From assembly GCA_026003175.1 (NCBI GenBank), contig BPGT01000001.1, forward strand, positions 472,839 through 536,838: a DNA stretch of 64,000 bases, written 5' to 3'. The notes beneath the pieces are model-generated. The model did no database searches. It was not told the origin of the DNA and was given only the letters and a program-made list of their open reading frames with translations. The position numbers and the translations under genes were made by a program. This DNA is from Armatimonadota bacterium (GTDB lineage: Bacteria; Armatimonadota; HRBIN16). Numbering within the stretch: the first letter of the stretch is position 1; every line of letters begins with the position of its first letter. Below, piece by piece: positions 4,921-38,102 of this stretch.

Positions 4921-7674
4921 TCATGCCTCCACGGCGTGTGCTGCGCGGAACTCCACGCGCTTGAGGATGCGCAGCTGCAGGATGGTGAAGCCAATCAGCA
5001 CGGAACCCAACACCCACGCCATCGCCGTGGCATAGCCGAAGCGCAGGTACAAGAAGGCGTTCGTCCAGATATGAATGCCCAGCACCATCGTGGAGTTAGC
5101 GGGACCACCCCCTGTCATCACGAACACGTTCTGCATCGCATGGAAGCTGCCGATGAACGCGCCGATGAAGTTAATCATGATGAGCGGCTTGAGCGAGGGG
5201 AACATGATGTACCACATCTTGTGCCAGAAGTTGCCGCCATCTACCGCGATCGCTTCGTACAGGTCTTCGGGCACGGTTTTCAGCGCGGCGAGGTAAATCA
5301 GGCTGCCCGGTCCCGCCCCCGCCCACACGCCGGGTATCACCACGCACAACATCGCCAGCCCGGGCGTATGCAGCCAGTCGATATACTTCACTTCGGGCGA
5401 CACCACGCCCAGCGCGTGCAGGACAGGCATCATGATACGGTTCAGGAAGCCGTAGGGCGAGGGGTCGTAGAACATCTTCCACAGGAACATGATGACCAAT
5501 CCGGTGGTGACCGCTGGCAGGTAGAAGATGACACGGAACAGGATTTTGCCCCGCGGCACCTCGTGCAACAGCAAGGCGAGAAAGATGGGCGCGACGAAAC
5601 CGATAGCGAGATTTAGCCCCACGTACAGCACCGTCGCCCGCACCGAGTTCCAGAAGTCGGGGCTGGTCATCACCTCGATGAAGTTCGCCAGCCCCACGAA
5701 CTGACTGTTGCCGTAGATTTTGTAATCGTAGAACGCCATCAGCGTACCGCGAATGAGGGGCACATATTGCCACAGTACCACCGTCAGCAGCGCAGGCAAC
5801 ATCATCGACCACGCCAGCATGGTGGTCACCCTGCGCCGCGCCCCGGAGCCGACTACCTGCGACGCCTTCTGTTGCAATGCGCCCACATGCACTTCCGACT
5901 GCTCGCGCATCGCCCACACGAAGCCGTATACTACCAGTGGAGCCACCAGCAGGAAGATGATGGTGCCCAGCAGGTTGCGCCGGTGTTCCACTTCAGGCGG
6001 CACCACCCGATACAGCTTCGCGTTCACCTCGTTCATGCTGGTCCGAATGACCTGCGCGGGGTCTTTGTACTGCCCACCGTCGTAGAGGATGGTATCGATG
6101 GGAACCGCCAGCTCGTGCCCCTCCACGTGCTGGTAGTAGGGGTCGTGCGGCTGGATACGCCCGTATTTCGGAGCCTCCTCCATCGCCCGGCGGAAGGTGG
6201 GTTCGTAGTCCTCGTACTCTTCTATAAAACCGAACTTCTTCAGCATCTGCGGGCGGATAAGGTGCGGGTAGCCGCCTTTCACATACACTTCCGTGATGAT
6301 GCGCTGCGCCTCTTCGCTACATCGGAACACAAGGTACTCCCACGCCGCCTGAAGCACCTTCGGGTCGCGTGCGGCGCGTGCACTAATCACCCAGGCGCGT
6401 CCTCCGGTGAGCGCAGCGCGCACTCCACCCTCTCCTGCGCTGGGAGGCGGTCCCAGCCCTATCTGGTCGGGACGCAAACCGCCCTGCGTGAGCACCTGGT
6501 CTATCACCTGCGGGTTGATGTGGTCCAGCATCATGGCGATTTCGCCGCGCAGGAACATTTCCACTGGGTCACCCCCCACGCGCACCACCCCAGTATACAC
6601 CGGCAGTGCACGCAGGTCGCGCCCGCACTGCTTGCAGCGGAAGCGGGTCTGCTCGCGCTTCACCGGTATCAACGTGCCGCACACGCGGCAGCTGAGACGC
6701 TCCACCTCGCCGCGAATGGGGTTCTCTTCTTTGCATTTCGGGCACACCGCGACCGGCAGGTTGTTGGGCGTCTGGCAGTCGGGACAGCGCGTCCACTCCG
6801 TCCAGCGCAGCTTCTTGTAGAAGCGCAACGCCCTTTGTCCCGGCTCGCGCCCGTAAGCTACCTTCCAGCGTCGGGGTTGGTCTGCCAGACTGCGTCCGCA
6901 CTTGCGGCACAGGCATTGCTTATCCTCCTGCTTGAACTCGTTCACTGTGCCGTCGACGGGGCAGGTGCGCTCCTGCAGGGTCATGTCGCCGCCCGCCTGG
7001 TACACGAAGTTGGTGAAGATATAGCCTGCGGTGTAGCCGGTGCGGAGGGCGGTTCCGTACTGCCCCGTCTGGAATCGCGCTCCCTTCACCTGCTTCTCTG
7101 GGTGGGTAAGCCGTTGCGCGAACTCGAAGTACTCCTGCCAGTCCTGCGGTGGTCGCGGCGGCACGATGCCTGCTTCCTCAAACAGGTCGCGTCGATACCA
7201 TAGCCCCAGAATCCAGTAGTCGCTCACGATGGCGTACAGTCTGCCATCGGGTCCGCGTGCGGCGTCGTAGTGGTGTTCGGTCAAGCCCAGCGAGGGCGGT
7301 TTCCAGTGTGGATTCTTCTTGCGGTATTCGTGAATCAGGTCGTCCAGAGGCAGGATTAGCCCTTGTCGGATATAGTTTTGCACCTGCCGGATGCTGAGGT
7401 CAAACACATCCGGGGCGCGATCGGCGGCGAACGCCATCATCTGCTGCGCCTCTGCCAGCCCTTCCGGCAAGGCGAGACCGGTCACGCGCTCGTAGCGGTA
7501 GTTCGGGTGCTTGCGGAAGAAAGCGTCAAACACTGCCAGCTCCGCCTGATTCTGCACGCCCGTCGCACTGCGCAGGGGGATATTCGCCAGGCGGATGGTG
7601 ACCACGTTTTTGTCTTCAGCACGCGCTCCCGACACCAACAGCAACGCCATGAGCAGCAGAGCCAGCCTGAGCAC
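4921..7674 (-). CDS. Fused extracellular sugar-binding protein and MalF-type ABC permease with zinc-ribbon insert
   Basis: About 917 residues from a GTG that opens a clean signal peptide (LRLALLLMALLLVSGARA, then EDKN). Residues of about 25-560 form a family-1 solute-binding domain ('YAIVSDYWILGLWYRRDLF', 'PQVIDQVLTQGG'). At about 235-350 this domain is interrupted by Cys pairs (CLCRKC, CPDC/CPKC, CRVC/CKQC) that look like three zinc ribbons. A membrane segment (about 570-590) leads to a MalF-like permease with an EAA-type loop (YEAIAVDGGNFWHKMW). The frame is open another 218 codons upstream, but that part is a translated 93-bp tandem DNA repeat and is rejected as coding. An ATG nine codons downstream is an alternative start; neither has a strong ribosome site. 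Confidence 0.85.
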   Translation of the reverse strand: MLRLALLLMALLLVSGARAEDKNVVTIRLANIPLRSATGVQNQAELAVFDAFFRKHPNYRYERVTGLALPEGLAEAQQMMAFAADRAPDVFDLSIRQVQNYIRQGLILPLDDLIHEYRKKNPHWKPPSLGLTEHHYDAARGPDGRLYAIVSDYWILGLWYRRDLFEEAGIVPPRPPQDWQEYFEFAQRLTHPEKQVKGARFQTGQYGTALRTGYTAGYIFTNFVYQAGGDMTLQERTCPVDGTVNEFKQEDKQCLCRKCGRSLADQPRRWKVAYGREPGQRALRFYKKLRWTEWTRCPDCQTPNNLPVAVCPKCKEENPIRGEVERLSCRVCGTLIPVKREQTRFRCKQCGRDLRALPVYTGVVRVGGDPVEMFLRGEIAMMLDHINPQVIDQVLTQGGLRPDQIGLGPPPSAGEGGVRAALTGGRAWVISARAARDPKVLQAAWEYLVFRCSEEAQRIITEVYVKGGYPHLIRPQMLKKFGFIEEYEDYEPTFRRAMEEAPKYGRIQPHDPYYQHVEGHELAVPIDTILYDGGQYKDPAQVIRTSMNEVNAKLYRVVPPEVEHRRNLLGTIIFLLVAPLVVYGFVWAMREQSEVHVGALQQKASQVVGSGARRRVTTMLAWSMMLPALLTVVLWQYVPLIRGTLMAFYDYKIYGNSQFVGLANFIEVMTSPDFWNSVRATVLYVGLNLAIGFVAPIFLALLLHEVPRGKILFRVIFYLPAVTTGLVIMFLWKMFYDPSPYGFLNRIMMPVLHALGVVSPEVKYIDWLHTPGLAMLCVVIPGVWAGAGPGSLIYLAALKTVPEDLYEAIAVDGGNFWHKMWYIMFPSLKPLIMINFIGAFIGSFHAMQNVFVMTGGGPANSTMVLGIHIWTNAFLYLRFGYATAMAWVLGSVLIGFTILQLRILKRVEFRAAHAVEA

Positions 7675-7733
7675 CAAATAGAGGTTGCACGAACCACCTG
7701 TCGGGCGAACCTCATGGAGCCTGTTTAGCCGCA

Positions 7734-7764
7734 ACGTGGAGGGCGAGGCTCCCGCCGAGCCGAC
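7734..7764. repeat. Dispersed 'GGAGGGCGAGGCTCC' intergenic repeat, copy 1
   Basis: GGAGGGCGAGGCTCCCGCC followed by GAGCCG. The same motif recurs at about 22426 and 22516 (plus orientation) and about 46248 (reverse), always between genes. Confidence 0.6.
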
Positions 7765-7810
7765 GGAGCAGTAGCCGTTCCCTCCCAAACGACGCCAGCC
7801 TGCGCTGACT

Positions 7811-8310
7811 AACTCCCCTCTCCCTGTGGGAGAGGGGCAGGGGGAGAGGTGCAGCGATAGATGACCTAACCCCCAATCCCCCTTCCCTGCGAGGGAAGGG
7901 GACAACTCCCCTCTCCCCGTGGGAGAGGGGTTGGGGGAGAGGTGCAGCGATAGATGACCTAACCCCCTATCCCCCTTCCCTGCGAGGGAAGGGGACAACT
8001 CCCCTCTCCCCGTGGGAGAGGGGTTGGGGGAGAGGTGCAGCGATAGATGACCTAACCCCCAATCCCCCTTCCCTGCGAGGGAAGGGGACAACTCCCCTCT
8101 CCCCGTGGGAGAGGGGCAGGGGGAGAGGTGCAGCGATAGATGACCTAACCCCCTATCCCCCTTCCCTGCGAGGGAAGGGGACAACTCCCCTCTCCCCGTG
8201 GGAGAGGGGTTGGGGGAGAGGTGCAGCGATAGATGACCTAACCCCCTATCCCCCTTCCCTGCGAGAGAACCTGTGGGAGAGGGGCAGGGGGAGAGGTACC
8301 ACCGATTGAG
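7811..8310. repeat. 93-bp tandem repeat array, just over 5 copies
   Basis: Copies begin at 7811, 7904, 7997, 8090 and 8183, exactly 93 bases apart and nearly identical, followed by a truncated, diverged copy to about 8310. Each unit contains two GC-rich palindromes, CCCCTCTCCC...GGGAGAGGGG and CCCTTCCCT...AGGGAAGGG, separated by GGTCATCTATCGCTG-type spacer. Because 93 is a multiple of three the array stays open in frame with the ABC gene, creating a false N-terminal extension. Together with 7675-7810 it fills the 666 bases without a gene between the ABC fusion gene and the deacetylase gene. Related single copies occur near 9260 and 34711. Confidence 0.9.
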
Positions 8311-8340
8311 GCGACTGCGCCTGCTCATACCGACCGCTTC

Positions 8341-22614: not shown

Positions 22615-23931
22615 CTATCCTTCCTCCCGCCGCGGTGCGAGCAGGGTGAGCACCACCGCCAGCACCAGAAAACTTATCTCTACCACTCCTCCCGAACCCC
22701 ACCGCACGAACCAGTTGCCCTCGCCAGGCGTGAACAACACAGGGGGCAGAAACTTCACCCACGTCAGCCCCGTTTGCATCCACACTGTCCACAGCCACCA
22801 GGTGCGTGTGGGCGCGTTGCGCCGAAACCAGAGCGCGGCGAGATAGGCGGTGATAAACAGCAGCACCACCAGACCTGCAAAGCCCCAGCCGCCAGCGAAA
22901 AGCGCTTTCTCGTCGGTCAGGTAGCGCACGGTATCGGTCGCAGAAACCAGCGTGACCGCCACACCCGTGCCAAACGGCGCCCATCCCGTGCCCGCAAGGC
23001 TTCCCAGCAGACCAAACAGCATCCACAGGAAAGGCAGGTTCGCCCACGATTGCGCCCAGCTCACGTCCTGCTCCACCGCCAGTGTAGGTATCAGCCAGAG
23101 CAGGATGGTGAGGTCGTCCCAGCGGCGGTGCCAGGTGGCAGGTTGAGGCGGTAGATTGGCTGACAACCCGCTCATCTTCCAGCCGATGCCCAGTCCCGCG
23201 CCCGCGATGAAGCCGAAGGTCATCTCCATCACCTTCCACCAGTCCATCCATCGCTGCACCGCCTCGCCAAAAGGTTTCTGGTGCATACCCCATGCCTGCA
23301 GTACCTCTCCGAAGCTGAAGCCGATAGCCCCTGCCACGATTCCCCCTAGCGCCATCGCTACTGCCTGCCGGTGCTTGCGGAACGCGCCAGTGTACACCAT
23401 CAAACCGATGAGCGCAGACCACAACCCACCCCACCACTCCACGCGCGGTTTCGCGGAGTTGGGGTCGGAGAAATAGATGAGCGGAAGTTGTTCCGGCGGG
23501 TTGTGTGGGCGATTCAGCAGCTGCACCCCAATAGCCCACAGCGCCAGCATACCCAGCAGCATCAGCGCGAGTTCTTGAGGACGGTAGCGGTCGCTGGCGG
23601 CGATTGCCAGAAAGGCGCCGACGATACCAATCCACACCCCACCTTTGATAGCCAGTCCCAGCAACCCCCACCAGTAGGTCGGCGAGGGGTACTGGTTCTG
23701 CACCAGTCCAATGGTCTGCCCGTAGGTCATCATCCCGCCCAACGAGCAGGCGAAGGCAGCGACCGCCGCCAGGCGCACCGCCTCTTTGCCGCGCCAGCCC
23801 GCCAGCATCGCCAGCGCCAGTCCCACCATCGCGCCGGGCACCATCGCGCCCGTCTCGCCTCCGAACTGCCCGCGAATGCCCCACCCCAGACACATCGCCA
23901 GGGCGGGCAGCAGAACAAACAGAACGTTCAT
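22615..23931 (-). CDS. Polytopic membrane protein of unknown function
   Basis: 438 residues with about 10-12 hydrophobic segments and many Trp and Gly residues. The N-terminus 'LAMCLGWGIRGQFGGETGAM' is distinctive, and I associate it loosely with uncharacterised membrane proteins of Planctomycetes, Verrucomicrobia and Armatimonadota. No transporter, enzyme or sensor motif is visible. It faces away from the giant helicase-repeat gene. Confidence 0.7.
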   Translation of the reverse strand: MNVLFVLLPALAMCLGWGIRGQFGGETGAMVPGAMVGLALAMLAGWRGKEAVRLAAVAAFACSLGGMMTYGQTIGLVQNQYPSPTYWWGLLGLAIKGGVWIGIVGAFLAIAASDRYRPQELALMLLGMLALWAIGVQLLNRPHNPPEQLPLIYFSDPNSAKPRVEWWGGLWSALIGLMVYTGAFRKHRQAVAMALGGIVAGAIGFSFGEVLQAWGMHQKPFGEAVQRWMDWWKVMEMTFGFIAGAGLGIGWKMSGLSANLPPQPATWHRRWDDLTILLWLIPTLAVEQDVSWAQSWANLPFLWMLFGLLGSLAGTGWAPFGTGVAVTLVSATDTVRYLTDEKALFAGGWGFAGLVVLLFITAYLAALWFRRNAPTRTWWLWTVWMQTGLTWVKFLPPVLFTPGEGNWFVRWGSGGVVEISFLVLAVVLTLLAPRREEG

Positions 23932-24028: not shown

Positions 24029-24058
24029 TTGCATTCTGCATAGAGGTTGTGCTATGAT
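24029..24058 (+). promoter_or_regulatory. Promoter of the giant helicase-repeat gene
   Basis: TTGCAT (24029-24034), 18-base spacer, TATGAT (24053-24058), followed by an AGGA about nine bases before the ATG. Good but not perfect consensus. Confidence 0.6.
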
Positions 24059-24090: not shown

Positions 24091-27000
24091 ATGTTGCACA
24101 CAGTGCTCTTCCATCGCAGGGTAGAAAAGAAGCTGAGGCAGAAGTCGCTACCTCGCGCTCAGGTCGCCAAGTGTGTGAGCCTGCTCGCCCAGGGGCGGAC
24201 TGAGGGAATCGGCTTGCGCATGAAACGCCTGAAAGGCATTGACCTCCCCGTGTTCGAGGCGCGCGTGAACGACGATGTGCGCCTGATATTTACGAAGCAA
24301 CCGGCGTACACTTACTCCAAAGATAGCACGAAGGATAGAGACCATTTGACCCACCAGATGGTGGTCTGGGATGTAGACCACCATGACGACGCCCTGGACG
24401 CCGCTAGGCGTATCTCGTATGACTCGCTCCGGCAGGCGGAATATCTGAACCTGGCAGCCCTCTTGCACACGGACGGCGTGCTGGAGGAGATGGAGATTAG
24501 CAAGCTGCCCGAGTATCCCACTGTGCCTATCTCGGTGGTGCAATCCGCCGTGAAGACGGCGAAGAACGTCCTTCCCCAGTATGTGCGCCTGCATTACCGC
24601 GGCGAAGAGTGGTGGATGGAGCAGGCAATCAACGCCGAGCGGGAAAGCCTGTACGACGCTCAGGAGTTTGTGGAGATTGACCTCGACCGCATTGAAGAGG
24701 AGATAGAGCGCATCGCCCAGACCGATGAAGACTTCCTGCTGCGCCTGTTGCCGGAGCAGATGCAGTTTGTGCGCAGGACGGGTCCCCTGTTGCTGAGCGG
24801 CACGGTAGGAAGCGGTAAAACGACCATCATGCTGTACCATCTGTACCGCCAGGCGCGCGCCAACCCGGCGGGCAGGTACCTTGTGGTCACTTACTCCCCC
24901 ACGCTCACCGCCCTGTGCCAGATGCTGTTTGAACACCTGCCGCGTGGACGCGAACTGCTACAACAGGTGGACATCCTCAGCTACGAAGACCTCCTGCGTC
25001 GCCTGGCTCCTGACAGGCAGATGTTGAGCTACGCAGAGAGGCGTCAGCGGTTTCACGAGGCATATCAGCGCCTGAAGGAAGCATGGAAGCTGGCTAACTT
25101 CCAGGAACCACTGAGGTCGCTCAGAAAAAAGCACAAGCAGCTCCCCTGGGACGAGGAGACGCTGTGGGCGGAGTACTGGGACGTGCTGAAGGGACAGCTG
25201 AACTGGCATACCAGCCAGCTGCTGGACAGGGACGGATATCTGCACAGTGCGGAGAGCGATTTCTCGACGCAGGAACGTGAGTACCTGTTTGAGGTCATGC
25301 AGACCTGGTTCAACCTGGAGGGGACAGATGAGCTAGACCTCACGCGCGAGCTGTGGGAAGCGCGCGCTCATCTTGAGCCGATGTACGACGGTGTGTATGT
25401 GGATGAGATTCAGGACCTGTGCGAAGTGCAGTGGATGCTTCTCATCAGGCTGGTCAAACACCGGGCAGGGTTATTCCTCACCGGCGACCCGTTCCAGGCG
25501 TTGCGTCCCTCCGGCTTTCACTGGAAGAGGCTGGTGGCTCGCCTTTCTCAAGCAGTCACCGTGCAGGAGGGTTCGCTGCAGCTGAACCTGCGCAACAGCC
25601 GACAGATTGCGCAGTTTGTGCAGCAGGAGCTGGAGCGGGTCAGCAAGGGTTACGGACTGCATGAAACGCCCGATTACCACGTCACCGCGCTGCTGGACGG
25701 TTTGCCCCCGGCTTACATGCTGCTGGAAAATCACTGTGATACCCCCATGCAAGCGGTGGCGGACTGGCTGCGCGACCAGGGAGCCGTGCTGGTGTGGGAT
25801 GAAGAGCACGAGAGCCATCCCAACGCTCAGCAGTTTGCCCAGCGCGGCGCACTGCTTTGCACGGTGGACGAGGCGAAAGGGCTGGAGTTCGACCGCGTGG
25901 TACTCTTCAACATCTACGGTGCGTTGCAGGAACAGATGAAGCAGTCTACCGTGATTCGCCAGCAGGCACTTTCCCGGCTGTATGTGGCTTTGACGCGAGC
26001 GCGGCGGGGCATGATCTTGGTGGAAACGAGTAAAAAGCATTTGCCGCCGGGCTTGCATTCGGTGAGTGACGGATGGTGGCAGGTGTGGCAATCCATACCA
26101 CCCGTGATGGTGCGTAGCGTGGAAGCGGTGAATCCCCAAAGACGGCTAGCGCGCCGTATGGAGCAGGAAGGACGATACTTGGAGGCGTCAGTCGCCTACG
26201 AGCAGGTGAGGGATTATGCAAACGCAGCCAGGTGTTACGAACAAGCAAAGGATTATGCGAACGCGGCAAGGTGCTACGAGCAGATGGGGGATTATGCCAA
26301 GGCAGTTGAGTGTTACGTGTTGGCGAAAGACTACGCGAACGCAGCACGCTGTTACAAACAGGTGGGAGATTATGCAAGCGCAGCAAGTTGCTACGAGCGA
26401 GCAAAGGATTATGCAAATGCAGCACGCTGTTACGAGCAGATGGGGGATTATGCGAACGCGGCAAGGTGCTACGAACAAGCAAAGGATTATGCGAACGCAG
26501 CCAGGTGTTACGAACAAGCAAAGGATTATGCGAACGCAGCAAGGTGCTACGAGCAGATGGGGGATTATGCCAAGGCAGTTGAGTGTTACCTGCTGGTGAA
26601 AGACTACGCGAACGCAGCACGCTGTTACGAGCAGATGGGGGATTATGCGAACGCGGCAAGGTGCTACGAACAAGCAAAGCATTATGCGAATGCAGCAAGG
26701 TGCTACAAACAAGCAAAGGATTATGCGAACGCAGCACGCTGTTACGAGCAGATGGGGGATTATGCGAACGCAGCAAGGTGCTACGAACAAGCAAAGGATT
26801 ATGCGAACGCAGCACGCTGTTACGAGCAGATGGGGGATTATGCGAACGCAGCAAGGTGCTACAAACAAGCAAAGGATTATGCGAACGCGGCAAGGTGCTA
26901 CGAGCAGATGGGGGATTATGCCAAGGCAGTTGAGTGTTACGTGTTGGCGAAAGACTACGCGAACGCAGCACGCTGTTACAAACAGGTGGGAGATTATGCA

Positions 27001-30000
27001 AGCGCAGCAAGTTGCTACGAGCGAGCAAAGGATTATGCAAATGCAGCACGCTGTTACGAGCAGATGGGGGATTATGCGAACGCGGCAAGGTGCTACGAAC
27101 AAGCAAAGGATTATGCGAACGCAGCCAGGTGTTACGAACAAGCAAAGGATTATGCGAACGCAGCAAGGTGCTACGAGCAGATGGGGGATTATGCCAAGGC
27201 AGTTGAGTGTTACCTGCTGGTGAAAGACTACGCGAACGCAGCACGCTGTTACGAGCAGATGGGGGATTATGCGAACGCGGCAAGGTGCTACGAACAAGCA
27301 AAGGATTATGCGAACGCAGCAAGGTGCTACAAACAAGCAAAGGATTATGCGAACGCAGCCAGGTGTTACGAACAAGCAAAGGATTATGCGAATGCAGCAA
27401 GGTGCTACGAACAAGCAAAGGATTATGCGAACGCAGCAAGGTGCTACGAGCAGATGGGGGATTATGCCAAGGCAGTTGAGTGTTACCTGCTGGTGAAAGA
27501 CTACGCGAACGCAGCACGCTGTTACGAGCAGATGGGGGATTATGCGAACGCGGCAAGGTGCTACGAACAAGCAAAGGATTATGCGAATGCAGCAAGGTGC
27601 TACAAACAAGCAAAGGATTATGCGAACGCAGCCAGGTGTTACGAACAAGCAAAGGATTATGCGAATGCAGCAAGGTGCTACAAACAAGCAAAGGATTATG
27701 CGAACGCAGCACGGTGTTATGAGCAGTTAGGGGATTATGCCAAGACAGTCAAGTGTTACATGTTGGTGAAAGACTACGCGAACGCAGCACGCTGTTATGA
27801 GCAGTTAGGGGATTATGCCAAGGCAGTCAAGTGTTACGTGTTGGCGAAAGACTACGCGAACGCAGCACGCTGTTATGAGCAGTTAGGGGATTATGCCAAG
27901 GCAGTTGAGTGTTACGAGCAGTTAGGGGATTATGCCAGCGCAGCAAGGTGTTACGATCAGGCAGGGGATTATGCCAGCGCAGCAAGGTGTTACGACCAAG
28001 TGGGCGATTATGCAAACGCAGCGCGGTGTTACGAGCTTGCAGGGGATTATGGCGATGCAGCGCGGTGTTACGATCTTGCGGGGGATTATACCAAAGCAGC
28101 CAGGTGTTACGAGCTTGCAAAGGATTATGCCAAAGCAGCCCAGTGTTGCGAGCGTGCGAAGGATTATGTCAAAGCAGCCCAGTGTTACGAGCGGTTGAAG
28201 GATTATGCAAACGCAGCGAGGTGTTACGAGCAGGCAGGGGATGTGCAATCTGCAGCGCGGTGTTGGGGGTTGTTTCACAAGCAGCAGGGAAACTGGTCGG
28301 AAGCTGCAAGGAGGTTCGAGGAAGCTGGTCTACCTGCACAGGCAGCCCAGTGTTACGAACAGGCAGGGGATGTGCAATCTGCAGCGCGGTGTTACGAGCA
28401 GTTGAAGGATTATGCAAACGCAGCGCGGTGTTACGAGCTTGCGGAGCATTATGGCGATGCAGCGCGGTGTTATGAGCTTGCAAAGGATTATGCCAATGCA
28501 GCGCGGTGTTACGAGCGTGCGGAGCATTATGCAAACGCAGCGCGGTGTTACGAGCAGGCAGGGGATGCGCGATCTGCGGCGCGGTGTTGGGGGTTGTTTC
28601 ACAAGCAGCAGGGAAACTGGTCAGAAGCTGCAAGGAGGTTCGAGGAAGCTGGTCTACCTGCACAGGCAGCCCAGTGTTACGAGCAGGCAGGGGATTATGG
28701 CGATGCAGCGCGGTGTTACGGACTTGCGGAGCATTATGGCGATGCAGCGCGGTGTTACGAGCTTGCAAAGGATTATGCGAACGCAGCCCAGTGTTACGAG
28801 CGTGCAAAGGATTATGTCAATGCAGCCCAGTGTTACGAGCGTGCAAAGGATTATGTCAATGCAGCCCAGTGTTACGAGCAGTTGAAGGATTATGTCAATG
28901 CAGCGCGGTGTTACGAGCTTGCGAAGGATTATGGCGATGCAGCCCAGTGTTACGAGCGTGCGAAGGATTATGGCGATGCAGCGCGGTGTTACGAGCTTGC
29001 GGGGGATTATACCAAAGCAGCCAGGTGTTACGAGCTTGCAAAGGATTATGCCAAAGCAGCCCAGTGTTACGAGCAGTTGAAGGATTATGCCAATGCAGCG
29101 CGGTGTTACGAGCGTGCGGAGCATTATGCAAACGCAGCGCGGTGTTACGAGCAGGCAGGGGATGCGCGATCTGCAGCGCGGTGTTGGGGGTTGTTTCACA
29201 AGCAGCAGGGAAACTGGTCAGAAGCTGCAAGGAGGTTCGAGGAAGCTGGTCTACCTGCACAGGCAGCCCAGTGTTACGAACAGGCAGGGGATGTGCAATC
29301 TGCAGCGCGGTGTTACGAGCAGTTGAAGGATTATGCAAACGCAGCGCGGTGTTACGAGCTTGCGGAGCATTATGGCGATGCAGCCCAGTGTTACGAGCGG
29401 TTGAAGGATTATGCAAACGCAGCGCGGTGTTACGAGCTTGCAGGGGATTATGCAAACGCAGCGCGGTGTTACGAGCTTGCAGGGGATTATGGCGATGCAG
29501 CGCGGTGTTACGAGCTTGCAAAGGATTATGCCAAAGCAGCCCAGTGTTGCGAGCGTGCGAAGGATTATGTCAAAGCAGCCCAGTGTTACGAGCGGTTGAA
29601 GGATTATGCAAACGCAGCGCGGTGTTACGAACAGGCAGGGGATGTGCAATCTGCAGCGCGGTGTTACGAGCGGTTGAAGGATTATGCAAACGCAGCGAGG
29701 TGTTACGAACAGGCAGGGGATGTGCAATCTGCAGCGCGGTGTTACGAGCGGTTGAAGGATTATGCAAACGCAGCGCGGTGTTACGAGCTTGCGGGGGATT
29801 ATACCAAAGCAGCCCAGTGTTACGAGCTTGCAAAGGATTATGCCAAAGCAGCCCAGTGTTGCGAGCTTGCAAAGGATTATGCCAATGCAGCGCGGTGTTA
29901 CGAGCTTGCGGGGGATTATACCAAAGCAGCCCAGTGTTACGAGCAGTTGAAGAATTATGCAAACGCAGCACGGTGTTACGAGCTTGCAGGGGATTATGGC

Positions 30001-32496
30001 GATGCAGCGCGGTGTTACGAGCTTGCGAAGGATTATGCGAACGCAGCCCAGTGTTACGAGCGTGCAAAGGATTATGTCAATGCAGCCCAGTGTTACGAGC
30101 TTGCAGGGGATTATGGCGATGCAGCGCGGTGTTACGAACTTGCGAAGGATTATGGCGATGCAGCGCGGTGTTACGAGCGTGCGAAGGATTATGGCGATGC
30201 AGCGCGGTGTTACGAGCTTGCGGGGGATTATACCAAAGCAGCCAGGTGTTACGAGCTTGCAAAGGATTATGTCAAAGCAGCCCAGTGTTGCGAGCTTGCA
30301 AAGGATTATGCCAAAGCAGCCCAGTGTTACGAGCAGTTGAAGGATTATGCAAACGCAGCGAGGTGTTACGAGCAGGCAGGGGATGTGCAATCTGCAGCGC
30401 GGTGTTACGAGCGTGTGGGGGATTATGGTGATGCAGCGCGGTGTTACGAGCAGTTGAAGGATTATGCAAACGCAGCGCGGTGTTACGAGCAGGCAGGGGA
30501 TGTGCAATCTGCAGCGCGGTGTTACGAGCGTGTGGGAGATTATGGCGATGCAGCGCGGTGTTACGAGCGTGTGGGGGATTATGGCGATGCAGCGCGGTGT
30601 TACGAGCTTGCGGGGGATTATACCAAAGCAGCCAGGTGTTACGAGCTTGCAAAGGATTATGCCAAAGCAGCCCAGTGTTGCGAGCTTGCAAAGGATTATG
30701 CCAATGCAGCGCGGTGTTACGAGCTTGCGAAGGATTATGCGAACGCAGCCCAGTGTTACGAGCGTGTGGGGGATTATGTCAATGCAGCCCAGTGTTACGA
30801 GCAGTTGAAGGATTATGGCGATGCAGCGCGGTGTTACGAGCGTGCGGAGCATTATGCAAACGCAGCGCGGTGTTACGAACTTGCGAAGGATTATGGCGAT
30901 GCAGCCCAGTGTTACGAGCGTGCGAAGGATTATGGCGATGCAGCGCGGTGTTACGAGCTTGCGGGGGATTATACCAAAGCAGCCAGGTGTTACGAGCTTG
31001 CAAAGGATTATGCCAAAGCAGCCCAGTGTTGCGAGCGTGCGAAGGATTATGTCAAAGCAGCCCAGTGTTACGAGCAGTTGAAGGATTATGCAAACGCAGC
31101 GCGGTGTTACGAGCTTGCGGAGCATTATGGCGATGCAGCGCGGTGTTACGAACTTGCGGGGCTTTCAGAGAAGGCTATAGAGTGCTACGTAAAGGCAGAA
31201 AGATGGCAGGATGCCGCTCGGTGTTGTGCATGTATCGGACAGATGGAAAAAGCTGGTGAATACTACGAGAAGGCAGGTTTACTTGATGAATCTGCTGGAT
31301 ACTACGAAAAAGCAAACAGATTCGGCAGGGCAGCTCCGCTTTATGAACATCTACGAAAGTACGAAGAAGCTGCACGATGTTACGAGAGGGCAGGTATACC
31401 TGAAAAGGCAGCAGCATGTTATGAGACTTCAGGCAATTATGAGCGAGCGGCGCATCTCTTCGAGCAGATAGAAAAGTATAACGACGCCATACGATGTTAC
31501 GAGGCAGCAAATATGTTGCAAGGCGTGTGGAGGTGCAAGGGAAAGAAAGCGTACAAATCGGCAAGATACCTTGAGGCAGGAGAATACTTCTCGCAGGCGG
31601 AGATGTACCAAGAGGCTGGTGAAAGCTACCGCAAGGCTGGGAAGTGGGACAAAGCAGCAGAGAGCTTTCAGCGAGCGGAGAGGTTTAAAGAAGCAGCAGA
31701 GTGTTATGAGAAAGTGCCAAACTTTGAACGGGCAGCCTTGTGCTACAAAAAGGCAAAAATGTTCTCTGATGCAGGACGTTGTTATAAAGAGATTCTTCAG
31801 TATTGCGAAGCAGGCAGGTGTTACGAAGACGCAAAGGATTACTTGAGTGCTGCACTGTGTTACATTTACGCTGAGGAGTGGGCGAGTGCGGGAAAATGCG
31901 CGGAGCGGATAGAAGACTATCACACGGCAGCGGTTTTATACAGAAAAGGTGGTGATTACCTGAAGGCTGCAGAGTGCTATGAGAAAGCAGGCAAACTCGT
32001 CAAGGCTGCAGAGTGCTATGAGAAAGCAGGCAAACTCGTCAAGGCTGCAGAGTGCTACGAAAAGTCCAAGCGTATTCAGGACGCTTGGCGATGCTGGGCA
32101 ATCGACAAAGAACATAAGCGTAAGTACCGTGAGGCGGCGGAGGCTTACAGAAATGCAGGCTTGTTGGACAAGGCGGGGGCGTGTTACGAGCTTGATAAGG
32201 ACTATCCGAATGCTGCCATTTGTTTTGAATCAATCTACGATTACGCGAGGGCAGCAGAAAACTACAAGCGAGCTGGCATGTATAAAGAAGAGGCGCGGTG
32301 CTTAGGAAGGAGATGGGAGAGCGAGGACCCTTACAAAGCCGCTACTTACTACGAGAAAGCAGGTTTGTTTGCCGATGCAGCTCGATGCTATGAGAAGGTG
32401 GGTTTGTATGCAAACGCGTGGAAGTTTTATGAAATGGCACACATGAAAAAGGATGCCGAGCGCTGTCGCCGTCTTGCCTTACAGGGGCATCCGTAG
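24091..32496 (+). CDS. Giant SF1 (UvrD-like) helicase with about 160 TPR-like 13-residue repeats
   Basis: 2801 residues. Residues 1-80 ('RRVEKKLRQK', 'LPVFEARVNDDVRLIFTKQ') resemble a RelE/ParE-like fold. A superfamily-1 helicase follows: Walker A GTVGSGKTT (237-245), Walker B VDEIQD (437-442), LNLRNSRQIAQF (motif IV-like), VDEAKGLEFDRVVLF (from 592, motif V-like) and YVALTRARRGM (631-641, motif VI). From about residue 700 to the end the protein is built of 13-residue units with consensus DYANAARCYEQAK, most carrying one Cys. Units up to about residue 2355 are near identical; later ones diverge (KAAECYEKAG). The overall plan recalls animal TRANK1 (UvrD helicase plus TPRs). The start is fixed by the ribosome site. 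It stands alone. A role in nucleic-acid handling or defence is only inference. Confidence 0.9.
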   Translation: MLHTVLFHRRVEKKLRQKSLPRAQVAKCVSLLAQGRTEGIGLRMKRLKGIDLPVFEARVNDDVRLIFTKQPAYTYSKDSTKDRDHLTHQMVVWDVDHHDDALDAARRISYDSLRQAEYLNLAALLHTDGVLEEMEISKLPEYPTVPISVVQSAVKTAKNVLPQYVRLHYRGEEWWMEQAINAERESLYDAQEFVEIDLDRIEEEIERIAQTDEDFLLRLLPEQMQFVRRTGPLLLSGTVGSGKTTIMLYHLYRQARANPAGRYLVVTYSPTLTALCQMLFEHLPRGRELLQQVDILSYEDLLRRLAPDRQMLSYAERRQRFHEAYQRLKEAWKLANFQEPLRSLRKKHKQLPWDEETLWAEYWDVLKGQLNWHTSQLLDRDGYLHSAESDFSTQEREYLFEVMQTWFNLEGTDELDLTRELWEARAHLEPMYDGVYVDEIQDLCEVQWMLLIRLVKHRAGLFLTGDPFQALRPSGFHWKRLVARLSQAVTVQEGSLQLNLRNSRQIAQFVQQELERVSKGYGLHETPDYHVTALLDGLPPAYMLLENHCDTPMQAVADWLRDQGAVLVWDEEHESHPNAQQFAQRGALLCTVDEAKGLEFDRVVLFNIYGALQEQMKQSTVIRQQALSRLYVALTRARRGMILVETSKKHLPPGLHSVSDGWWQVWQSIPPVMVRSVEAVNPQRRLARRMEQEGRYLEASVAYEQVRDYANAARCYEQAKDYANAARCYEQMGDYAKAVECYVLAKDYANAARCYKQVGDYASAASCYERAKDYANAARCYEQMGDYANAARCYEQAKDYANAARCYEQAKDYANAARCYEQMGDYAKAVECYLLVKDYANAARCYEQMGDYANAARCYEQAKHYANAARCYKQAKDYANAARCYEQMGDYANAARCYEQAKDYANAARCYEQMGDYANAARCYKQAKDYANAARCYEQMGDYAKAVECYVLAKDYANAARCYKQVGDYASAASCYERAKDYANAARCYEQMGDYANAARCYEQAKDYANAARCYEQAKDYANAARCYEQMGDYAKAVECYLLVKDYANAARCYEQMGDYANAARCYEQAKDYANAARCYKQAKDYANAARCYEQAKDYANAARCYEQAKDYANAARCYEQMGDYAKAVECYLLVKDYANAARCYEQMGDYANAARCYEQAKDYANAARCYKQAKDYANAARCYEQAKDYANAARCYKQAKDYANAARCYEQLGDYAKTVKCYMLVKDYANAARCYEQLGDYAKAVKCYVLAKDYANAARCYEQLGDYAKAVECYEQLGDYASAARCYDQAGDYASAARCYDQVGDYANAARCYELAGDYGDAARCYDLAGDYTKAARCYELAKDYAKAAQCCERAKDYVKAAQCYERLKDYANAARCYEQAGDVQSAARCWGLFHKQQGNWSEAARRFEEAGLPAQAAQCYEQAGDVQSAARCYEQLKDYANAARCYELAEHYGDAARCYELAKDYANAARCYERAEHYANAARCYEQAGDARSAARCWGLFHKQQGNWSEAARRFEEAGLPAQAAQCYEQAGDYGDAARCYGLAEHYGDAARCYELAKDYANAAQCYERAKDYVNAAQCYERAKDYVNAAQCYEQLKDYVNAARCYELAKDYGDAAQCYERAKDYGDAARCYELAGDYTKAARCYELAKDYAKAAQCYEQLKDYANAARCYERAEHYANAARCYEQAGDARSAARCWGLFHKQQGNWSEAARRFEEAGLPAQAAQCYEQAGDVQSAARCYEQLKDYANAARCYELAEHYGDAAQCYERLKDYANAARCYELAGDYANAARCYELAGDYGDAARCYELAKDYAKAAQCCERAKDYVKAAQCYERLKDYANAARCYEQAGDVQSAARCYERLKDYANAARCYEQAGDVQSAARCYERLKDYANAARCYELAGDYTKAAQCYELAKDYAKAAQCCELAKDYANAARCYELAGDYTKAAQCYEQLKNYANAARCYELAGDYGDAARCYELAKDYANAAQCYERAKDYVNAAQCYELAGDYGDAARCYELAKDYGDAARCYERAKDYGDAARCYELAGDYTKAARCYELAKDYVKAAQCCELAKDYAKAAQCYEQLKDYANAARCYEQAGDVQSAARCYERVGDYGDAARCYEQLKDYANAARCYEQAGDVQSAARCYERVGDYGDAARCYERVGDYGDAARCYELAGDYTKAARCYELAKDYAKAAQCCELAKDYANAARCYELAKDYANAAQCYERVGDYVNAAQCYEQLKDYGDAARCYERAEHYANAARCYELAKDYGDAAQCYERAKDYGDAARCYELAGDYTKAARCYELAKDYAKAAQCCERAKDYVKAAQCYEQLKDYANAARCYELAEHYGDAARCYELAGLSEKAIECYVKAERWQDAARCCACIGQMEKAGEYYEKAGLLDESAGYYEKANRFGRAAPLYEHLRKYEEAARCYERAGIPEKAAACYETSGNYERAAHLFEQIEKYNDAIRCYEAANMLQGVWRCKGKKAYKSARYLEAGEYFSQAEMYQEAGESYRKAGKWDKAAESFQRAERFKEAAECYEKVPNFERAALCYKKAKMFSDAGRCYKEILQYCEAGRCYEDAKDYLSAALCYIYAEEWASAGKCAERIEDYHTAAVLYRKGGDYLKAAECYEKAGKLVKAAECYEKAGKLVKAAECYEKSKRIQDAWRCWAIDKEHKRKYREAAEAYRNAGLLDKAGACYELDKDYPNAAICFESIYDYARAAENYKRAGMYKEEARCLGRRWESEDPYKAATYYEKAGLFADAARCYEKVGLYANAWKFYEMAHMKKDAERCRRLALQGHP
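26208..31160 (+). repeat. 39-bp tandem repeat array inside the giant gene
   Basis: About 127 in-phase copies of a 39-base unit (13 codons), e.g. GATTATGCGAACGCAGCAAG plus GTGCTACGAACAAGCAAAG. Two sub-families are visible: an upstream one (to about 27930) using GCGAACGCAGCAAGGTGCTAC and a downstream one using GCAGCGCGGTGTTACGAGC. A 624-base (16-unit) segment is duplicated: 26311 onward repeats at 26935, and 26584 at 27208. A longer unit with 'CWGLFHKQQGNWSEAARRF' interrupts the downstream block three times (near 28260, 28585 and 29180). Confidence 0.95.
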
Positions 32497-32504
32497 TCCC
32501 TTCC

Positions 32505-32990
32505 TCACACCTCCCACACTTTCGGCTCCAGAGTGTGCGTGTCCAGAGTAACTACAGTGCATTTGCCCGTGAGCCAGCCGCCGGTCTCGCCGGGGTTGAT
32601 AATCAGCACGCTCCCCTCGCGGCGGATGTCTAGCCTGTGGGTGTGACCATACACCAGCACGTCCAGCGCGTTGCCTGCGGCGATGGGCGCGACCAGTTCG
32701 TCCTGATGCACGACGCCCACCTGCTTGCCCTCCACCTCTACCGTGGCGATACGCGGATGCACCGCGCCGATGGGTTCAAACGCCTTCGACAAGCCGATAC
32801 GCTCGCCGTCGTTGTTACCGAACACCGCTACCACCCGACAGGGCGCACCGTGCATCGCCCGCACCGCAAAAGGTGCGACGAAATCGCCCGCGTGGATGAT
32901 CAGCCCCACGCCCTCCCGCGCGAACAGCTCCATCGCCGCGCGGATTTTGGGCAGGTTGTCGTGACTGTCCGCCATGATGCCTATCTTCAC
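32505..32990 (-). CDS. YfcE/MJ0936-type metallophosphoesterase
   Basis: 161 residues with all calcineurin-like metal motifs: 'GIMADSHDN', 'IIHAGDFVAP', 'AVFGNNDGE', 'GVVHQDEL' (weakened GxxHG) and 'VYGHTHRLD'. Family members cleave phosphodiesters, cyclic nucleotides among them, in the cytosol. The gene begins inside the stop of the MBL-fold gene (ATGA overlap), so the two are co-translated. It converges on the giant gene with only eight bases between the stops. Confidence 0.9.
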   Translation of the reverse strand: MKIGIMADSHDNLPKIRAAMELFAREGVGLIIHAGDFVAPFAVRAMHGAPCRVVAVFGNNDGERIGLSKAFEPIGAVHPRIATVEVEGKQVGVVHQDELVAPIAAGNALDVLVYGHTHRLDIRREGSVLIINPGETGGWLTGKCTVVTLDTHTLEPKVWEV

Positions 32991-34531
32991 AGGGGTATCT
33001 CCTTTCCGACTTCGGGAATGACCACTTTACATATACCCGAAAACCGTTCGATAAAGGTAGCAGGTTCGGTGGTGTGTACGGGAATGAGCGTGCGTGGGCG
33101 CACCGTTTCTATCACCCGGCTCAGTTCCTCGCCGGAGGCGTGCCCCGAAACGTGCAGGGGAACGCTCTCATCGTCGGCATCGCCCTGCGGGGGATGGCGC
33201 GTGAAGCCAAAGCGCTGCAGCCAGCGGTTGAGGCGCTGGTCGTCGATGCGCTGCTCTTCCGTCATCGGCTCGCTGAAGGACTGTATCCACAAGCCCTCGT
33301 TCACCTTCAGGTACGGCAGCTCGTTGAGGTCAAAGTAGCCAAAGCAGAGCAGGTACTGTTCGGGATGGCGGGCAATCTCTTGCGCGGTGATGCAAAGGCG
33401 GCCATACCGTTCGTGCAGGGCTTTCTCCCACGATTCGGAGGGCGGCTTGCCCACCCCCTGATACCACAGCAGGGAACCGTCCTCCAGGGACAGGTTGTGA
33501 CCGCTCTCCCGCCACGCATGGAGCAGGTACAGGTCTTTCGGGTTCACCACCACCTGCCTGCCGCATTCGCACGCCGCCCGCCAGAAACGCTTCATGCGCT
33601 CCAGGTGGGTCATGGAGAAGTTCGCGCTCACCAGCCTGCCGCGGTGTTGCTGGAGCAGCTCTGCAAAGCGTTGCTGCACATCGTCTTCCGTGTACCCCGA
33701 ACCCGAGCGCGAGATGCGTGTGCCCTCGATAATCAGCGCAACAGGTTTGAGCTGCGCGGCTTCCTCTGCAAACCGCTCGGTGAGATGGCGCCGCTCGCCA
33801 CGGAAGCGCAGGTCGCCCGTATACACTACCCAGCCCGCACTCGTTTCCACCGCCCACGCGCCCGCACCGGGGATAGAGTGGTCTAACGGGAAGAAGCGCA
33901 CCCGGTAGCCGTTGATTCGACCGCTGAAGGTCTGCAGCGATTGCACCTTGCATTTATCGTGGTGTCCACCGGGCAGCTCGCACCAGAAGGACTGCATGTG
34001 CTCGGTGTTGCCGTCGGCGGTCAGCACGGGGCGGTAGGTTGCCAGCGGGGTGTCCCTGCGGTTCCAAGCCAGCTTCCTGAACTCGCCGTCCCTGAGTTCG
34101 AACTGGCGCACGTAGATGGTGCCATCATCCAGACTGTTACAATCCTGTAGGGCACGTAGTAGCAGCGCGCTCTCAGCAGAGCATATCAGCGGGATGTCGG
34201 GCACGAGGTATTGCAGGTCGCCCGCGTGGTCGGAATGCGCGTGAGAAAGCAAAACCGCGTCCACCCTATCCAGCCGGGTGCGCCATTTGTCAAAGCGGTA
34301 TTCGTCCAGAAAGCGGTCGTGGTAGATACCTTGCACAGGAGGCAGTAAGTCCATCACAAACAGCTCGTACAGCCCCCGCCCCTTCTGGGGTTTGAGGTAC
34401 TCCTCATAGTAGTCCATCAGGCGGCTCAGGTTCTGCCCGAAGTCCAGCCACAGGGTCAGGTAGTCATCCTGCAGCAGGATTTTGTTGCCCCCGACGCATC
34501 CAGCGCCGTCCCAAACGGTCACACGGGTCAT
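32987..34531 (-). CDS. MBL-fold metallohydrolase, RNase J/beta-CASP-like
   Basis: 514 residues. The dinuclear metal site is 'LLSHAHSDHAGD'; further ligands lie in 'FFPLDHSIPGAG' and 'VVYTGDLRFRG'. A Thr/Ser-rich middle ('NFSMTHLERMKRF') and the C-terminal 'VSGHASGEELSRVIETVRP' followed by 'TLIPVHTTEP' match RNase J-like nucleases. It probably acts as an RNA exonuclease or endonuclease; being longer and more divergent than RNase J itself, the exact substrate is uncertain. It overlaps the phosphoesterase gene by four bases, suggesting a joint nucleotide or RNA turnover role. Confidence 0.8.
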   Translation of the reverse strand: MTRVTVWDGAGCVGGNKILLQDDYLTLWLDFGQNLSRLMDYYEEYLKPQKGRGLYELFVMDLLPPVQGIYHDRFLDEYRFDKWRTRLDRVDAVLLSHAHSDHAGDLQYLVPDIPLICSAESALLLRALQDCNSLDDGTIYVRQFELRDGEFRKLAWNRRDTPLATYRPVLTADGNTEHMQSFWCELPGGHHDKCKVQSLQTFSGRINGYRVRFFPLDHSIPGAGAWAVETSAGWVVYTGDLRFRGERRHLTERFAEEAAQLKPVALIIEGTRISRSGSGYTEDDVQQRFAELLQQHRGRLVSANFSMTHLERMKRFWRAACECGRQVVVNPKDLYLLHAWRESGHNLSLEDGSLLWYQGVGKPPSESWEKALHERYGRLCITAQEIARHPEQYLLCFGYFDLNELPYLKVNEGLWIQSFSEPMTEEQRIDDQRLNRWLQRFGFTRHPPQGDADDESVPLHVSGHASGEELSRVIETVRPRTLIPVHTTEPATFIERFSGICKVVIPEVGKEIPL

Positions 34532-36785: not shown

Positions 36786-38102
36786 TCAGGCAGCCATATC
36801 CTGTTGCACTGTGCCCCAGAACGCCTGCAGTTTGCACTGCGTCTGGTGTATAAACTCTTTCGGGTTTACCCAGCCCTCCGTGTAGTTGCTCGCGCTTTCC
36901 ACCCACAACCCGGAATCGAGCAAGTTCTCTTCCCTGAGCATCCGCAGAGTCTCCTCGCTCAGCCTCTGCCGCACCACCTCCGCCTGCTCGCCGGTGTAGG
37001 GGAGGATGATTGCCATGTCGGAAACATCGATGCGTGCCGGGATGTCGGCTTTGCGGATTTTCGCCCGCAGACGCGGTGTAAGCCTTGCTATCACACCCTC
37101 AAACAGGTTCAGCCCGTACTGCCGGATGAACATCTGCGCACCGCCTATGCGGATGATTACCACCCCCAGTGTGTAGCCGTATCGGCTGGCGCGATTGATC
37201 TCCTCATCCAACCGGCTTTCGAAGTAGCGGCGATTGTAGCACCCGGTAATCGGGTCCACAATGGAAGGCTGCGTCAGTTCGGCTTCGGTGGTCATCATCC
37301 GCTGTTGCATCCGCATCATCTGCGCTTGAGCGTCCTTCAGCTCCTCGGTGACCAGTATCTTGCGCAGCTTCTTGGTGGAGTTGCGCAGGATGTGCGATAC
37401 ATAGTTGCAGGATACACCCAGTTGCTGGGCGATTTCGGTTTGTGACAGCTCTTCATAGAAGAAAGCGTACAGCACCTTGCGCTCGATCTCTTTGAGCCGT
37501 TCCATCGCATGTTCCAGCACCACCCGCTCTTCGGTAGCAACCTGCATGGTCATGCTGTCTGGATGTTCCAGTTTCTCGATGTCTGCGCCGGAAAAGTGGT
37601 CTTCCTCTTCGCCCTCACCGCTCTCCAGCGAGGCGACCCGGAACAGCTCGCTGGTGGAGAGCAGGTGTTCTACCTGCTTCTCATCCATGTTCATCACCGC
37701 ACCGATTTCGGCAGAGGTGGGTTGTCTGCCCAGCTGCTGCGAGAGCGAGTCGACCACGCGCGTCAGCTTCTGATGCAGCTCTTGAATCCATGCAGGCACT
37801 TTAATAATCTTACCTCTGTCGCGCAGGTAGTGTTTGATTTGTCCGATGATAAAATGGGTGGCGTATGTAGAGAACTTGGTACCCTTATCGGGGTTATACA
37901 GATCGATGGCATTCAATAACCCCAAGTAGCCTTCCTGAATCAGGTCCTCAAGAGGTTCGCCCGTGTTGACGAAGCGTCGGGCAATGCTCTCCACAAGAGT
38001 AGGAAATTGTGCCACGATACGCTCGCGGATTTCCAGATCACCTGTTCGGTGGTACTCGATAACGAGCTGTTGCACTTCGTTGTCGTTATATCTTTTGGAC
38101 AT
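36786..38102 (-). CDS. Sigma70-family sigma factor fused to a degenerate GGDEF domain
   Basis: 438 residues. Residues 1-260 are a group-3 (SigB/SigF/FliA-like) sigma factor: region 2 'FVNTGEPLEDLIQEGYLGLL' and 'FSTYATHFIIGQIKHYLRDR', region 3 'PAWIQELHQKL', region 4 'LKEIERKVLYAFFYEELSQT' with the helix 'AQQLGVSCNYVSHILRNS'. A coiled linker (about 255-280, Gln/Met-rich) joins a GGDEF-like domain: 'DPITGCYNRRYFESRLDEEI', with 'RIDVSDMAII' where GGDEF should be (near residue 358). It therefore cannot be an active diguanylate cyclase, but could sense nucleotides or dimerise. Start supported by AGGG before the ATG; terminator behind. Confidence 0.9.
   Translation of the reverse strand: MSKRYNDNEVQQLVIEYHRTGDLEIRERIVAQFPTLVESIARRFVNTGEPLEDLIQEGYLGLLNAIDLYNPDKGTKFSTYATHFIIGQIKHYLRDRGKIIKVPAWIQELHQKLTRVVDSLSQQLGRQPTSAEIGAVMNMDEKQVEHLLSTSELFRVASLESGEGEEEDHFSGADIEKLEHPDSMTMQVATEERVVLEHAMERLKEIERKVLYAFFYEELSQTEIAQQLGVSCNYVSHILRNSTKKLRKILVTEELKDAQAQMMRMQQRMMTTEAELTQPSIVDPITGCYNRRYFESRLDEEINRASRYGYTLGVVIIRIGGAQMFIRQYGLNLFEGVIARLTPRLRAKIRKADIPARIDVSDMAIILPYTGEQAEVVRQRLSEETLRMLREENLLDSGLWVESASNYTEGWVNPKEFIHQTQCKLQAFWGTVQQDMAA

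Follow-up and report, generated by a model that had tools for sequence, protein, structure and literature searches.

The window, the whole 64,000-nucleotide stretch that was analyzed, contains at positions 24091 to 32496 of its forward strand a gene that runs from ATG to TAG through 2,801 codons with no internal stop. The 2,801-residue protein belongs to a hot-spring Armatimonadota bacterium, and the gene, which has orthologs in the genus, sits within a 1.63-Mb contig of a 4.1-Mb genome assembled in seven contigs. Four parts, all on the forward strand, are predicted in the product: a RelE/ParE (BECR)-like domain (residues 1 to 106, 24091 to 24408), a helical linker (residues 107 to 210, 24409 to 24720), an SF1A helicase core (residues 211 to 690, 24721 to 26160), and an array of about 159 single-helix units of 13 residues with the consensus DYANAARCYEQAK (26173 to 32481).

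The start codon lies 159 bp from the upstream neighbor, a minus-strand gene for a 438-residue protein without a Pfam family (22615 to 23931), and the downstream neighbor is a minus-strand gene for a 514-residue metallo-beta-lactamase/RNase J-like protein (32987 to 34531). Both flanks are conserved in the genus, and no antitoxin-like gene adjoins. An extended −10-like element, TGCTATGAT (24050 to 24058, forward strand), is found about 33 bp 5′ of the start codon by sequence comparison; similar elements precede the orthologs in G003 and G004, and the variants TGCTATAAT and TGTTACAAT precede those in G002 and G007. An automatic consensus promoter scan lists no such element. Neighboring genes encode transport, peptidase, dioxygenase, RNase J-like, rhodanese, sigma factor, and glycosidase proteins. 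No defense operon was found among the scanned neighbors, where the sole defense match is a sigma factor resembling MzaA. The enrichment in defense islands anticipated by the sequence-only reading was thus not seen, as the gene stands alone among housekeeping-type neighbors.

Two other features of the window were recorded. The 438-residue product of a minus-strand gene at 36786 to 38102 has sigma-70 regions 2, 3, and 4 and, at its C terminus, a GGDEF domain, and looks like a sigma factor fused to a diguanylate cyclase. The start of the minus-strand ORF 4921 to 8328 contains, at 7811 to 8269, 4.9 copies of a 93-bp tandem repeat with 96% matches and an abundance of inverted C/G-runs, and translation of that gene may in fact begin further in.

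The helicase core carries motifs I to VI intact and in SF1A order: Walker A (motif I) GTVGSGKTT (residues 237 to 245, 24799 to 24825), motif II VDEIQD (residues 437 to 442, 25399 to 25416), motif III LTGDPFQ, motif IV NLRNS (499), motif V AKGLEF (595), and motif VI VALTRARRG (residues 632 to 640, 25984 to 26010), those with coordinates all on the forward strand. A Pfam search with residues 1 to 700 returned UvrD-helicase (3.1e−9) and UvrD_C_2 (7.3e−7), and in the VIA structure comparison residues 211 to 666 matched UvrD, PcrA, and Rep with Z values of about 15. Among PADLOC models, the helicase matched GajB best (2e−15), followed by RTasHel (8e−12). HelD/HelR and UvrD were among weak matches. 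These results identify a complete UvrD/Rep-type SF1A motor at about residues 211 to 690. They uphold the motif positions and the nucleic-acid motor proposed by the sequence-only reading, and the domain search, which might have returned an unrelated P-loop family, returned SF1A. Motifs IV and V are separated by 96 residues here versus 286 in a UvrD of the phylum; judged from this spacing only, a 2B subdomain of UvrD size appears to be absent or much reduced. The linker is conserved in the genus and modeled with low confidence. Residues 106 to 242 and 465 to 552 have pLDDT values below 50 in the 976-residue AlphaFold2 model, and for this reason the packing of the RelE-like domain against the motor was left unread.

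In the AlphaFold2 model, at moderate pLDDT, residues 1 to 106 have strands and helices in the order seen in RelE (PMC11980606). A profile of 12 related N termini matches YoeB (7v5y) in the PDB with an E value of 6.9e−6, and Pfam searches with relatives returned HigB-like toxin (1.4e−5), ParE toxin (5e−6), and ParE_like (0.009). Residues 1 to 106 of the window protein alone match no Pfam family. RelE structures are missing from the VIA and Foldseek lists, which the motor and the array fill, making those lists uninformative on this domain. Across the 12 aligned sequences R64 is invariant and R58, H98, and D99 are nearly so. The catalytic residues of YoeB fall only partly inside the profile alignment; R64 and H98 are kept, and the YoeB glutamate has no clear counterpart. 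By fold and sequence profile, the domain belongs to the RelE/ParE (BECR) superfamily, with YoeB nearest, in agreement with the RelE-like N-terminal fold first suggested. Unlike the RelE/ParE toxins, with which it has the strand and helix order and a significant profile match in common, it is fused to a motor and has no antitoxin. Helicase fusions of RelE/ParE toxins are unmentioned by Gerdes (2025).

A scoring scan placed 158 to 159 units of 13 residues at residues 695 to 2797, with only six spacings other than 13. Most of the array is homogeneous: TRF reported a 39-bp period at 26197 to 31151 (126 copies, 73% matches), and the final ∼1.3 kb (31152 to 32481), comprising divergent C-terminal units and a cap, ends in RCRRLALQGHP, as does the G004 ortholog, a protein of about 930 residues. 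Self-identity of the array at lags of 13, 26, 39, and 52 is 0.58, 0.58, 0.54, and 0.51, above chance, and amino acid identity among units 1 to 126 averages 64%. The homogeneous part contains an exact 440-nucleotide duplication, 16 units apart, which is recent. AlphaFold2 modeled each unit as a 10-residue helix and a 3-residue turn (pLDDT, 83 to 90); for the last 601 residues, modeled from the single sequence, pLDDT was 47 and only the last ∼50 residues were usable. Units are about as similar to the next unit as to the next but one (identity of 0.66 at lag 1 and 0.68 at lag 2) with no A/B alternation, which indicates that the repeat is one helix and not a hairpin. The array is therefore predicted to be a single-helix solenoid and not a canonical TPR, which has 34 residues and two helices. 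The nearest shapes in Foldseek and VIA are TPR and IFT-A solenoids, with matches including OGT, IFT-A, and LGN, in which, as here, short helices pack into a superhelix. Pfam matches to PhoU, Clathrin, DDE_Tnp, and ArnB_C in the array were set aside as products of composition or of the solenoid. The repeat number of about 160 and the very long alpha-solenoid given by the sequence-only reading were thus reproduced by the scan and the model; its term “TPR-like” holds for the style of packing and fails for the unit.

Since a 39-bp period holds other frames open too, the uninterrupted frame, itself correctly read from the start, is weak evidence of coding, and other long frames of 641 residues (forward) and 624 residues (reverse) do cross the array. 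A pN/pS ratio of 0.48 was obtained between units in the protein frame, versus 1.36 and 0.76 for the two remaining frames, and this shows, together with selection on the motor, that the array is real coding sequence. Selection falls on the helix core, where positions 5, 6, 8, and 10 have pN values of 0.01 to 0.14 versus pS values of 0.18 to 0.82; positions 3, 4, 7, and 11 to 13 are more variable, and per-position comparison of pN and pS gave no clear sign of positive selection at the unit surface. The array contains 153 cysteines; almost all units have one at position 8, where the consensus units of the genus orthologs have a cysteine as well.

The gene is present in 7 of 10 genomes from the genus. 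As the sequence-only reading had foreseen for homologs, array length varies among orthologs with intact helicase motifs: 159 units in the window genome (G000), 47 in G007, 18 to 19 in G004, and 12 to 13 in G001, with at least 19 in G005 and about 10 in a broken G003 copy. The G002 copy has stops in the motor region, the G003 copy a stop plus a frameshift where the array lies, and the G001 copy a frameshift near the N terminus, although these are metagenome-type assemblies in which some breaks may be sequencing errors. Unit identity is higher within genomes (0.50 to 0.61) than between them (0.41 to 0.44), except in the closest pair, G000 and G004 (0.54 for both), and this within-genome likeness is a sign of array turnover, with a consensus specific to each species.

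The orthologs mostly occupy the same chromosomal site: the same two genes flank the gene in G000, G002, G003, and G004, while in G001 the upstream flanking gene is on another contig and the contigs of G006 and G009 run out before the site or next to it. In G008, the two flanks stop at the borders of the gene, on different contigs, so that loss, replacement, and rearrangement are indistinguishable and we did not score this genome as a plain empty site. Where the relatives have the helicase gene, G008 has a gene for a phage terminase large subunit (phrog_2, 4.6e−35), which adjoins the RNase J-like gene on contig C149 (L073, 1 to 1197). Simple Nei-Gojobori estimates between G000 and G004 gave a dN/dS of 0.27 and a dS of 0.63 for the first 700 residues versus dS values of 0.28 and 0.37 for the flanking genes. 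The motor thus evolves faster than both flanks yet is under purifying selection. By the same estimates, dS is 0.74 in the helicase versus 0.24 in the linker, which hints at replacement by recombination.

Beyond the genus copies, only one of 291 phylum genomes, G036, has a protein that passes an E value of 1e−20 over most of the model; it combines RelE and SF1 with 28 units of the 13-residue type in a two-unit alternation. A longer second subfamily is represented by a 1,528-residue frame on G003 contig C8 (E value, 1e−22). Proteins of this subfamily, about 1,500 residues long, occur in two Armatimonadota genomes (L026, 7256 to 11755, and L020) and have an SF1 motor, a long helical tail, and an N terminus that by eye looks like a degenerate RelE. 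Repeat-free RelE-UvrD proteins of about 680 residues are also present in the genus, including the window genome (L002 on G000 contig C6, and L021). Outside the phylum, cross-phylum counts being incomplete, RelE, SF1, and 13-residue units are found together on Crinalium and Euhalothece (cyanobacterial) plasmids, a Paraclostridium (clostridial) plasmid relative has a tail annotated as TPR, and a Polymorphobacter (alphaproteobacterial) plasmid relative has an ankyrin tail. Two contigs of a viral collection carry relatives: an ankyrin-matching one lies between a MuA transposase and phage repressor on one side and a replication-type gene on the other, and the other, whose similar tail is cut by the contig end, adjoins tail baseplate genes. 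Searches of annotated phages, and of viral contigs with A2 and the Crinalium protein as queries, found no relative. Matches on Shigella/E. coli plasmids span only the motor (about residues 214 to 676) and lack RelE. In a tree of 18 motors, a small sample with several long branches from which we claim the split and not the order inside, 12 repeat-bearing proteins separate with support of 100/99 from repeat-free RelE-UvrD, ARMADA-like, NERD-UvrD, and UvrD proteins. Within the one repeat-bearing clade, tails have been exchanged among 13-mer, TPR, and ankyrin arrays. That relatives are carried by plasmids and lie in phage-like DNA suggests that these proteins form a little-studied bacterial family with a role in conflict, probably in immunity.

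RelE-SF1 fusions are already known in ARMADA. ArmD of ARMADA type II is a GajB-like UvrD helicase with an N-terminal RelE-like domain; its deletion or the Walker A mutation K266A abolishes phage defense in E. coli, and D454N weakens it (PMC12458937). ArmD has the same order of RelE-like domain and SF1A motor as the window protein, with similar Walker A/B spacing (K243 and D438 here), and an ARMADA-like Pseudanabaena protein has a similarly short motif IV-V gap (117 residues versus 96). Unlike ArmD, which works in a four-gene operon, the window gene has none of the type II partners (YprA-like and BrxHII-like helicases and a PglX-like methylase) among its scanned neighbors; in the motor tree the ARMADA-like protein falls outside the repeat-bearing clade, and ArmD itself is likened by description, not by sequence. 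GajB of Gabija lacks the UvrD 2B gating helix and the GIG motif, and it binds GajA to form a complex and displays no helicase activity (PMC10681800). It has a UvrD-like core in common with the window motor, but it has no described RelE domain or solenoid, and no GajA (OLD-TOPRIM) gene was found among the scanned neighbors of the window gene. The claim that such a system was previously undescribed is therefore wrong for the RelE-UvrD fusion itself. Within a partial literature search, it stands for three things on which no papers were found: the clade with repeats, the swapping of 13-residue, TPR, and ankyrin tails, and the single-helix 13-residue solenoid. As for the animal protein TRANK1, of which the sequence-only reading was reminded and which has both TPR and ankyrin repeats alongside a UvrD-like motor, the ankyrin repeats of some relatives make it a better lead; the same partial search found no paper linking TRANK1 with UvrD.

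We consider it about an even call that the gene encodes a single-gene conflict protein, probably anti-phage or anti-plasmid, of a RelE-SF1-repeat family. This reading draws on the need for ArmD, the nearest functional analogue, in anti-phage defense, on the GajB and RTasHel matches, on relatives of the same layout on plasmids and in phage-like DNA, and on a repeat-free RelE-UvrD gene inside a Druantia/ARMADA-like cluster on a Pseudanabaena plasmid. Tail swapping is what would be expected of a recognition module, and arrays whose consensus is species-specific and whose length runs from 12 to 159 units, a recent duplication, a fast motor under purifying selection, patchy presence, and broken copies all fit. 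Against it are the housekeeping-type neighbors with no defense match save the MzaA-like sigma factor, the mostly conserved site, the missing antitoxin-like gene, the incomplete match to the RelE catalytic residues, and the absence of clear positive selection at the surface. We infer a target and an order of events as follows. The solenoid arm, as sensor or scaffold, would bind a protein or nucleoprotein of the invader or dock on the ribosome or RNA polymerase; this binding, or a blocked track, would alter the ATP-driven movement of the SF1 motor, the switch; and the altered motor would free the RelE-like effector to act, by cleaving mRNA if it has the activity of a BECR RNase. There is precedent in Hachiman for a helicase that can restrain and then release a nuclease (PMC12278908).

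How much of the array such a protein would need is a separate matter. Growth to 159 units may have been mostly neutral, through slippage or recombination, with a functional motor for which 12 to 20 units are enough; we find this plausible though short of an even chance, and it is compatible with any functional reading. The close ortholog G004 with its 18 to 19 units, the 12 to 13 units of G001, the recent exact duplications, and the stops or frameshifts in some relatives all favor it, but helix-core positions 5, 6, 8, and 10 keep their amino acids despite many silent changes, and the in-frame pN/pS is 0.48. We regard as unlikely a role in housekeeping surveillance, in which the motor would clear stalled RNA polymerase, R-loops, or stalled mRNA, with the RelE-like domain at the ribosome and the solenoid as a scaffold. 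The fixed site in most genus members, the conserved promoter-like element, the weak HelD/HelR and UvrD matches, and purifying selection would all be expected of such a gene, but it is absent from nearly all of the 291 phylum genomes, decayed in some members, and fast-evolving in motor and array, with relatives on plasmids and in phage-like DNA. Less probable still, RelE-SF1 proteins might help plasmids or prophages persist in the cell, leaving the chromosomal copy as a domesticated relic. RelE-family toxins form addiction modules, the cyanobacterial and Paraclostridium plasmid homologs (L049, L050, and L079) lie near parA/parB-type genes, and an ankyrin relative is inside a Mu-like region; however, none of the copies read has an identified antitoxin gene next to it, most genes on a small plasmid are close to parA anyway, and the chromosomal gene is under purifying selection. 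Misassembly, with a wrong number of units or wrongly joined ones, is very improbable: tandem repeats are easily misassembled, and the G005 contigs break within the gene and those of G009 stop beside it, but the frame is open end to end in a big contig of a seven-contig assembly, 110 of 158 DNA units are distinct, and G007 has 47 units within one frame.

Returning to the conflict-protein reading, the HIC repeats of fungal NLRs offer a comparison. Those repeats, whose units are 80 to 100% identical (PMC12222747), are likewise tandem repeats of a multidomain switch protein that change in length and turn over in concert; the window units, at 64% in the homogeneous part, fall below that range, and the motor is SF1 whereas HIC proteins have NACHT. 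We put forward only tentatively that the family comprises NLR-like bacterial immune receptors, with an SF1 helicase switch, a RelE RNase effector, and a rapidly rebuilt sensor of 13-residue, TPR, or ankyrin repeats. If the conflict-protein reading is right, it would add to the single-gene conflict proteins of bacteria a combination of an RNase-fold domain, a motor, and an exchangeable repeat arm, and such arms become longer and change in sequence from one species to its close relatives. Arrays of 12 to 159 units are a natural series on how a single-helix solenoid grows and what its length does. Should the resemblance to TRANK1 reflect kinship, the family would provide a tractable bacterial relative of an animal protein whose function is poorly known.
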